Origin: Leptolyngbya sp. KIOST-1
GTDB lineage: Bacteria; Cyanobacteriota; Cyanobacteriia; Phormidesmidales; Phormidesmidaceae
DNA length: 64,000 nucleotides
Assembly: GCF_000763385.1 (NCBI RefSeq)
Contig: NZ_JQFA01000002.1
Span: 2,790,001 to 2,854,000, forward strand
Reading direction: 5' to 3'
Below, in pieces: positions 24,902 to 26,625 of this stretch. The position numbers and the translations under genes were made by a program. The notes below the pieces were generated by a model. It had not been told where the DNA came from, did not search any database, and saw only the letters and a list, made by a program, of their open reading frames with translations. Position 1 is the first letter of the stretch. Each line of letters starts with the position of its first letter.

Positions 24902-26222
<1,321 letters not shown>

Positions 26223-26537
26223 CTAGGTGGTGTGAAGGGACTGAATTCTACCGCTGCCACGGTAGACCACAGCCTCTGGTCGAGCTGAGCCTGGCGGTGG
26301 GGGCAAGGGGGTGACCCGACCACTGCCGCGAAAGCTCAGGGGACCAGGAATGGCTGGAACTCGACTGAGCCGACCGCTGCCCCGGTCGTCCTCAGCGCGG
26401 GTGGCAACCCGGGGGGAAGACGGTCGGTGAAATTGGCGGGTGGCGATCAATCCTAGGGGAGGAGATGCCACCATCAGGCCCAGGCTAACGGCATAGGCCA
26501 CATGAGTCATCAAGGAACGGTTGGAGGAAGGGTGCAT
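26223..26537 (-). CDS. patX: PatX-like pro-peptide with three RGSGR motifs
   Basis: 104 residues from ATG 26537 (an internal ATG gives a start at residue 10). Residues 10-32 (MTHVAYAVSLGLMVASPPLG and LIA) are a hydrophobic, signal-peptide-like stretch. The rest is Pro/Arg/Ser-rich and holds three exact RGSGR pentapeptides at 52-56, 70-74 and 93-97, in the contexts DDRGSGRLS, SFRGSGRVT and VYRGSGRIQ; PGSAR at 82-86 looks like a decayed fourth. RGSGR is the known HetR-inhibiting core of PatS, HetN and PatX. PatX genes lie upstream of hetR in filamentous cyanobacteria, as here (364 bases, same strand). Expected role: exported or cell-to-cell precursor releasing HetR-inhibitory peptides. Three exact copies in one short precursor is the unusual point. 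Confidence 0.85.
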   Translation of the reverse strand: MHPSSNRSLMTHVAYAVSLGLMVASPPLGLIATRQFHRPSSPRVATRAEDDRGSGRLSRVPAIPGPLSFRGSGRVTPLPPPPGSARPEAVVYRGSGRIQSLHTT

Positions 26538-26587
26538 AGGACATGGCCTTGTTAGCGCTTCTAAGTCCTAGTTACAAACCTGGGCCC

Positions 26588-26625
26588 TATCAGTCAGGAA
26601 AATCTTTATCCGTAAATCTGCGGAT
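26588..26625 (-). promoter_or_regulatory. Possible patX promoter with overlapping dyad
   Basis: On the minus strand TTTACG (complement of 26611-26616) and CTGATA (complement of 26588-26593) are 17 bases apart, giving a start site near 26581 and a leader of about 45 bases. The -35 overlaps an inverted repeat ATCCG-N8-CGGAT (26608-26625), a plausible regulator site. Confidence 0.4.

Follow-up and report, generated by a model that had tools for sequence, protein, structure and literature searches.

A hetR-linked patX-type precursor with three RGSGR motifs in Leptolyngbya sp. KIOST-1 and variation in motif number among its relatives

How many HetR-directed peptides can one patX-type gene encode, and are all of them maintained? 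The question is raised by a short ORF before hetR in Leptolyngbya sp. KIOST-1, whose product carries the pentapeptide RGSGR three times. HetR and the RGSGR peptides are a textbook activator-inhibitor pair, and what hetR and patX do in filaments that lack heterocysts has been called a mystery (PMC11298460). We analyzed a stretch of 64,000 nucleotides around this ORF (contig NZ_JQFA01000002.1, positions 2,790,001 to 2,854,000; hereafter the window) together with its source genome (13 contigs, 6,320,123 bases in total) and with the hetR loci of other cyanobacteria. The features discussed are listed in Table 1.

Table 1. Features of the patX-hetR locus (window positions) and HetR-like paralogues of the same genome (contig positions)
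Feature	Position	Strand	Description
patX-type precursor gene	26223..26537	-	104 aa, ATG start, stop within the coordinates; homologues and codon test
N-terminal part, residues 1-34	26436..26537	-	hydrophobic, signal-peptide-like by hydropathy; limits approximate
Motif 1, RGSGR, residues 52-56	26370..26384	-	D before the core (DDRGSGRL)
Motif 2, RGSGR, residues 70-74	26316..26330	-	F before the core (SFRGSGRV)
Motif 3, RGSGR, residues 93-97	26247..26261	-	Y before the core (VYRGSGRI)
Promoter-like element TCCTGA-N18-GTAAC	26571..26599	-	DIF1-like, one letter off TCCGGA; TCCTGA at 26594-26599
hetR	24902..25840	-	312 aa; matches Pfam HetR_C and Peptidase_S48 and, above cut-off, the NCBIfam HetR equivalog; presumably what the peptides act on
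HetR-like paralogue L251	C2:59413-60288		same genome
HetR-like paralogue L252	C2:2691404-2692291		same genome

The precursor ORF and its position before hetR

An original prediction, made from the letters of the window, had described the length and strand of this ORF and the residues occupied by its three RGSGR copies, all of which proved exact on recomputation (Table 1). Translated in six frames (128,000 codons), the window holds 3 matches to RG[ST]GR against a mean of 2.85 in 20 shuffled windows, so that the count alone is not unusual; all 3 sit in one 104-codon frame, an arrangement for which we estimated by hand a chance of about 1e-5. The highest Kyte-Doolittle score of the protein in 11-residue segments is about 2.1, near residues 13-23, and past residue 45 the maximum is 0.69. 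A Pfam search of the 104-aa sequence returned no family.

The hetR gene lies 382 bp downstream of the ORF on the same strand. Its product is a close homologue of the HetR proteins of solved structures (E-value 7.6e-146) and retains the equivalent of R223, which is reported to be needed in Nostoc for the binding of PatS to HetR. Aligned with an inferred offset, it also retains the equivalents of R250, E253, E254, D256 and D270.

The protein shares with PatX of Nostoc/Anabaena PCC 7120, as described in PMC12756182 and PMC7761841, a small size, a hydrophobic N-terminus, an RG(S/T)GR core and a tie to HetR. It differs from it in several respects: the PCC 7120 protein is given as 56 aa long with a single HRGTGR and thus H at position -1 relative to the core, whereas the window protein has three motifs with D, F or Y at -1; the PCC 7120 promoter has TCCGGA where the window has TCCTGA; and the window protein misses the NCBIfam PatX model. 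Judged by the definition of hetR-linked PatX by Elhai and Khudyakov (2018), which has been applied to Leptolyngbya sp. BL0902 and which we took from papers citing it, the product is a small protein with the RG(S/T)GR core, here in three exact copies, and its gene accompanies hetR. The identity as patX that had been proposed from the location on the same strand upstream of hetR is backed by synteny, by the homologues, by the upstream element and by purifying selection on the motifs.

Conservation and selection within the genus

A protein search of 57 related genomes, including that of KIOST-1, gave 27 positive genomes: KIOST-1 itself, every one of the 25 further genomes in its genus (E-values up to 0.0038) and one genome outside it (E-value 0.0066). 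In the loci read, the homologous ORF lies upstream of hetR, and in genome G006 it is split across two contigs. Most ORFs of the genus in this position have three motifs; G025 and G019 have two, G001 and G022 four, G014 five and G006, with an array interrupted by the ends of two contigs, at least five. We considered that a third motif in G025 had been lost behind the stop codon and found no support for this, as reading that ORF beyond its stop gave no third motif.

For a pairwise codon comparison we used 22 three-motif orthologues, namely 20 of the 25 hetR loci of genus g1, that of the window (L006-L030), together with L056 and L057, leaving out g1 loci with other motif counts or split genes; these orthologues are related by descent and hence not independent. 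The motif codons gave a dN/dS ratio of 0.007 (dS 0.65); the linkers reached 0.35 and the N-terminal part 0.48. Among the 22 orthologues there is no amino-acid change in motifs 1-3 and there are many silent ones, the small dN of motif 3 reflecting the mutational paths that link AGA with CGN, all of them arginine codons. This silent-only change in the motifs, compared with the linkers and the N-terminus, indicates that all three copies are maintained by purifying selection. A chance ORF is ruled out by the selection on the motif codons, and conservation in the relatives, seen in the homologues and in that selection, identifies the ORF as a real gene. As the original prediction proposed, we also checked closely related genomes for a lost reading frame or lost motifs, and this check did not refute the prediction.

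The residues before the motifs are also conserved, in a different way for each copy. Position -1 is D in motif 1 (22/22), F in motif 2 (21/22, the sole exception being I in BL0902) and Y in motif 3 (22/22), and position -2 is nearly fixed as D, S and A, respectively, each in 21 of the 22. Motif 3 follows VY in the window protein and AY in the 21 other orthologues, and positions -4 to -6 are variable. Since the residue before each motif is position-specific and conserved, the copies are probably not mere duplicates. Downstream of the core, P occurs at +3 and +6 after motif 2 in 22/22 orthologues, so that conservation around the core extends beyond a hexapeptide. In print, ERGSGR and HRGTGR have been tested as HetR ligands, the hexapeptide being reported to bind better than the pentapeptide. 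Peptides flanked by D, F and Y might differ from one another in release or affinity.

Motif copies, upstream element and family models across hetR loci

HetR was detected in 187 of the 388 genomes of a class-wide survey. From among the matches listed we read 151 hetR loci, then 15 further stretches and those of G006 and G022; lower-scoring HetR matches in other families, f11 and f19 among them, fall outside this set. Motif counts rest on ORFs of the hetR strand near hetR, with start codons chosen by a scripted rule of thumb and with some stretches ending at contig ends. RG[ST]GR precursors were recovered in 125 genomes and in G006, which we counted apart with its at least five motifs owing to its gene being split on two contigs. 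In the family of the window (f1; strong HetR in 55 of 63 genomes), the 52 precursors carry one motif (4 precursors), two (5), three (26), four (12), five (3) or nine (2), and with G006 included 49 of the 53 precursors recovered have multiple motifs. Family f15 (HetR in 40 of 42 genomes) has 34 single-motif precursors and one each with 2, 3, 5 and 8 motifs (4/38 multiple), and in nine other families all 35 precursors have a single motif. Multivalency is typical of the window's family and not peculiar to this genome; the search for hetR-upstream homologues with a count of their RGSGR copies, which had been suggested as a check, yields 1-9 copies among relatives. At 38 of the 151 loci (23 of them in f32) the stretch read had no RG[ST]GR ORF on the strand of hetR, and the same was true of L317, L324 and L329, the last two shortened by contig ends.

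Two observations concern hetR itself. In genus g7, second strong HetR copies (L199 in G031 and L317 in G390) have an upstream stretch without an RG[ST]GR ORF, while 3 or 4 motifs are present in the precursor beside the first copy. At L024, L025, L072, L315 and L329, RGSGR stretches occur out of frame inside hetR; these were excluded from the counts and probably arise by chance from conserved codons.

The 187 copies in multi-motif precursors comprise 14 RGTGR, the remainder being RGSGR, and are spaced 10-35 residues apart. Near-identical 45-nt units are found in G006, and G027 and G354 have nine copies each, seven of them as 36-nt units, a pattern indicating that the repeats arise by tandem duplication. 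Both contigs of G006 (L024 on C55 and L253 on C241) terminate in a near-perfect tandem array of 45-nt units that encode IGTDSDVLAFRGSGR; because the assembly breaks inside patX, the copy number of this genome is bounded from below only. Genus g54 has members with 5, 3, 2 and 1 copies, the single-copy one holding a decayed RGSDR.

Decayed copies at the end of or within some arrays (AYRGSPVG in G014, RGSDR in G203 and RGGGR in G309) would suit a precursor in which a single motif, perhaps the last, provides the active signal and the others are processing sites or remnants, as would the fact that one motif suffices in Nostoc. We regard this as improbable, given that none of the three motifs changes in amino acid among the 22 orthologues despite many silent changes.

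On a quick HetR tree of 95 rows, one branch separates f1 from all other rows and another does so for f15 (support 91 and 90, respectively), and the multi-motif precursors fall into two separate groups, one being most of f1 and the other the f15 genera g54 and g108. The tree, which lacks G381 and G340 (no HetR frame was picked up), requires at least 5 changes between single and multiple motifs and at least 17 changes of exact copy count; as its outgroup is not one clade, the direction of these changes is uncertain. The range of one to nine copies among the relatives points to evolution adjusting how many inhibitory peptides, and which types, a precursor contains.

Single-motif precursors have H before the core in 58 of 73 cases. 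In 48 of the 52 multi-motif precursors, two or more kinds of residue are found at -1. Counted by genus (n = 13), this residue is polar in the first copy and aromatic in the last in 9, the order is inverted in 2, and both ends are of the same class in 2. The copies could nonetheless be equivalent, copy number setting the yield of inhibitor per precursor and flanks mattering just for cleavage. This reading is a real possibility, if short of an even chance, and it accommodates the identical core in all copies of the window protein, the range of 1-9 copies between relatives, the near-identical repeats of G006, G027 and G354, the all-Y arrays of g54, and the fact that position -1 is not unique, some linker positions being equally conserved, such as the two P residues that follow motif 2 (22/22). 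Speaking against it are the residue at -1, which within the genus differs between copies and yet is fixed for each, the mixing of -1 residues within precursors, and the polar-to-aromatic order in 9 of the 13 genera. Tentatively, and as a somewhat unlikely extension, one precursor may instead give rise to chemically different RGSGR peptides that differ in release, affinity or range, acidic or His-flanked ones from the N-terminal copies and aromatic-flanked ones from the C-terminal copies, with copies being added or deleted, between 1 and 9, to tune cell differentiation.

Upstream of the window precursor, the canonical DIF1 hexamer TCCGGA is absent and its position is taken by TCCTGA. As TCCGGA is published as the DIF1 consensus for heterocyst formers, we did not treat it as defining PatX here. 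TCCTGA lies within 200 nt upstream of 51/52 multi-motif and 73/73 single-motif precursors (124 of the 125 hetR-linked ones), against 2.0 and 3.5, respectively, expected from mononucleotide shuffles. It is mostly placed 51-70 nt before the precursor start, and GTAAC or a similar pentamer follows about 20 nt beyond it. For the window's own gene the interval used ended 24 nt inside the ATG, which alters that one distance and leaves the count unchanged. TCCGGA is found upstream of 2 multi-motif and 1 single-motif precursors, which is chance level. With 0.13 matches to the element expected by chance in the window alone, its weight rests on conservation. A genome-wide search of KIOST-1 with TCCTGA-N16-22-GTAACNAGG returned the site of the window only, and hence no wider regulon under this pattern. 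For the patX-hetR pair of BL0902, a DIF1 promoter has been predicted and the genes are apparently co-transcribed (PMC11298460); the TCCTGA element could be a DIF1-type promoter of hetR-linked patX, as a candidate variant.

The NCBIfam equivalog model for PatX (NF047413, heterocyst_PatX) scores the window protein at 12.8 bits, below its cut-off of 30, and passes in one of the 57 related genomes. At E-values up to 10 it matches 36 of the 52 multi-motif precursors, all below threshold (best E-value 1.9e-6), and at 1e-6, which we estimate to be in the neighborhood of the cut-off, it matches 0/52 multi-motif and 2/73 single-motif precursors. The PatS model (NF047415, heterocyst_PatS) does not match the window protein at an E-value of 10 or lower and weakly matches 5/52 multi-motif members (best E-value 0.0035). 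Outside the family, G054 has two PatX-model matches away from hetR (L330 and L331); TCCGGA precedes one of them and TCCTGA the other. In a 2025 survey, 474 genomes were scanned with Pfam and PGAP profiles at trusted cut-offs, and Leptolyngbya cf. ectocarpi LEGE 11479 is among those reported to have hetR but no patX (PMC12756182). Since NF047413 misses most hetR-linked precursors, whether single- or multi-motif, maps of patX presence and absence may undercount the gene, and reported absences may in part be a model artefact.

Proposed mechanism, target and relation to known systems

The reading that we favor, and hold to be quite probable, is that the ORF is a hetR-linked patX working as a multi-peptide precursor, exported and cut, with its peptides inhibiting HetR. 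The precursor with its three HetR-binding cores would be exported and cut outside the cytoplasm into several short RGSGR peptides, a step assigned in Nostoc to the peptidase PatP; neighboring cells would take these up, and the peptides would then inhibit HetR. Each of these steps, from export and cleavage to uptake and inhibition, is carried over to the window precursor by analogy. In Nostoc, according to PMC12756182, PatX without its signal sequence is inactive, HRGTGR inhibits HetR, and cleavage of PatX by PatP in an E. coli reporter is the source of the cut sites; processive cutting is a proposal of that study, in which a PatX-sfGFP fusion stayed cytosolic. Three peptides from one precursor could alter the dose or the range of the signal.

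The HetR dimer has more than one Hood domain, and with motifs 10-35 residues apart the uncut protein might be a multivalent ligand that bridges HetR subunits. This is very improbable in our view: the hydrophobic N-terminus suggests export, the activity of PatX in Nostoc depends on its export (PMC12756182), and motif spacing is not conserved.

The main result against a simple anti-HetR account comes from BL0902, where transcriptomes of patX and hetR deletions have been compared and the expression changes of the patX deletion are judged by the authors to be basically HetR-independent (PMC11298460). The main target of PatX in this lineage might be some factor different from the hetR product, or might be HetR paralogues, of which KIOST-1 has two (L251 and L252, 48% and 41% identity). 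Both paralogues keep some residues of the peptide pocket, with equivalents of R223, R250 and E253, and lack that of E254, again with an inferred offset. We consider such a target unlikely: patX and hetR are tightly linked and the motif is the known ligand of HetR. As to the paralogues, 3.7 kb read around each of them contain no RG[ST]GR precursor ORF, the single match being a 7-residue out-of-frame stretch within the gene of the second. A scheme of one motif per paralogue was also tried and rejected: genomes with two and with three HetR-like proteins both carry three motifs, so that copies and paralogues do not correspond one to one.

For the favored multi-peptide precursor, the closest studied relative is patX of BL0902 (GFS31_32390), which has the same genus code, is hetR-linked and has three RGSGR copies (locus L030), with I before motif 2 where the window protein has F. 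We equated GFS31_32390 with the L030 ORF by its place before hetR and counted the three motifs ourselves; the accessible text of the BL0902 study (PMC11298460) does not mention them. PatS and HetN share the RGSGR core acting on HetR; PatS, with 13-17 aa and one C-terminal motif, and HetN, with one internal motif, do not belong to the family of the window precursor. A similar design is known from Phr3T, Phr105 and other repeated Phr propeptides of Bacillota and their phages, exported precursors that repeat their signal peptide, up to 8 times as reported, and are cleaved by extracellular proteases, the copies being active at different affinities (PMC11343458). These differ in belonging to an unrelated family, in having Rap as receptor and in serving quorum sensing rather than HetR-controlled differentiation.

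Exported precursors with repeated pheromones are thus already known in Bacillota, and what may be new here is the hetR-linked PatX form. In the open-access papers on PatX that we searched, apart from supplements and the founding paper, we met no mention of a PatX with more than one core. As several strains with repeated motifs were probably sequenced before that founding paper of 2018 by Elhai and Khudyakov, an earlier description of repeated motifs in PatX is quite possible. In this family of filamentous cyanobacteria, the 1-9 copies with varied flanks beside the same regulator amount to a natural series of doses and ligand variants, which makes questions of peptide dose and of the residue at -1 testable, partly in the genetically tractable BL0902.
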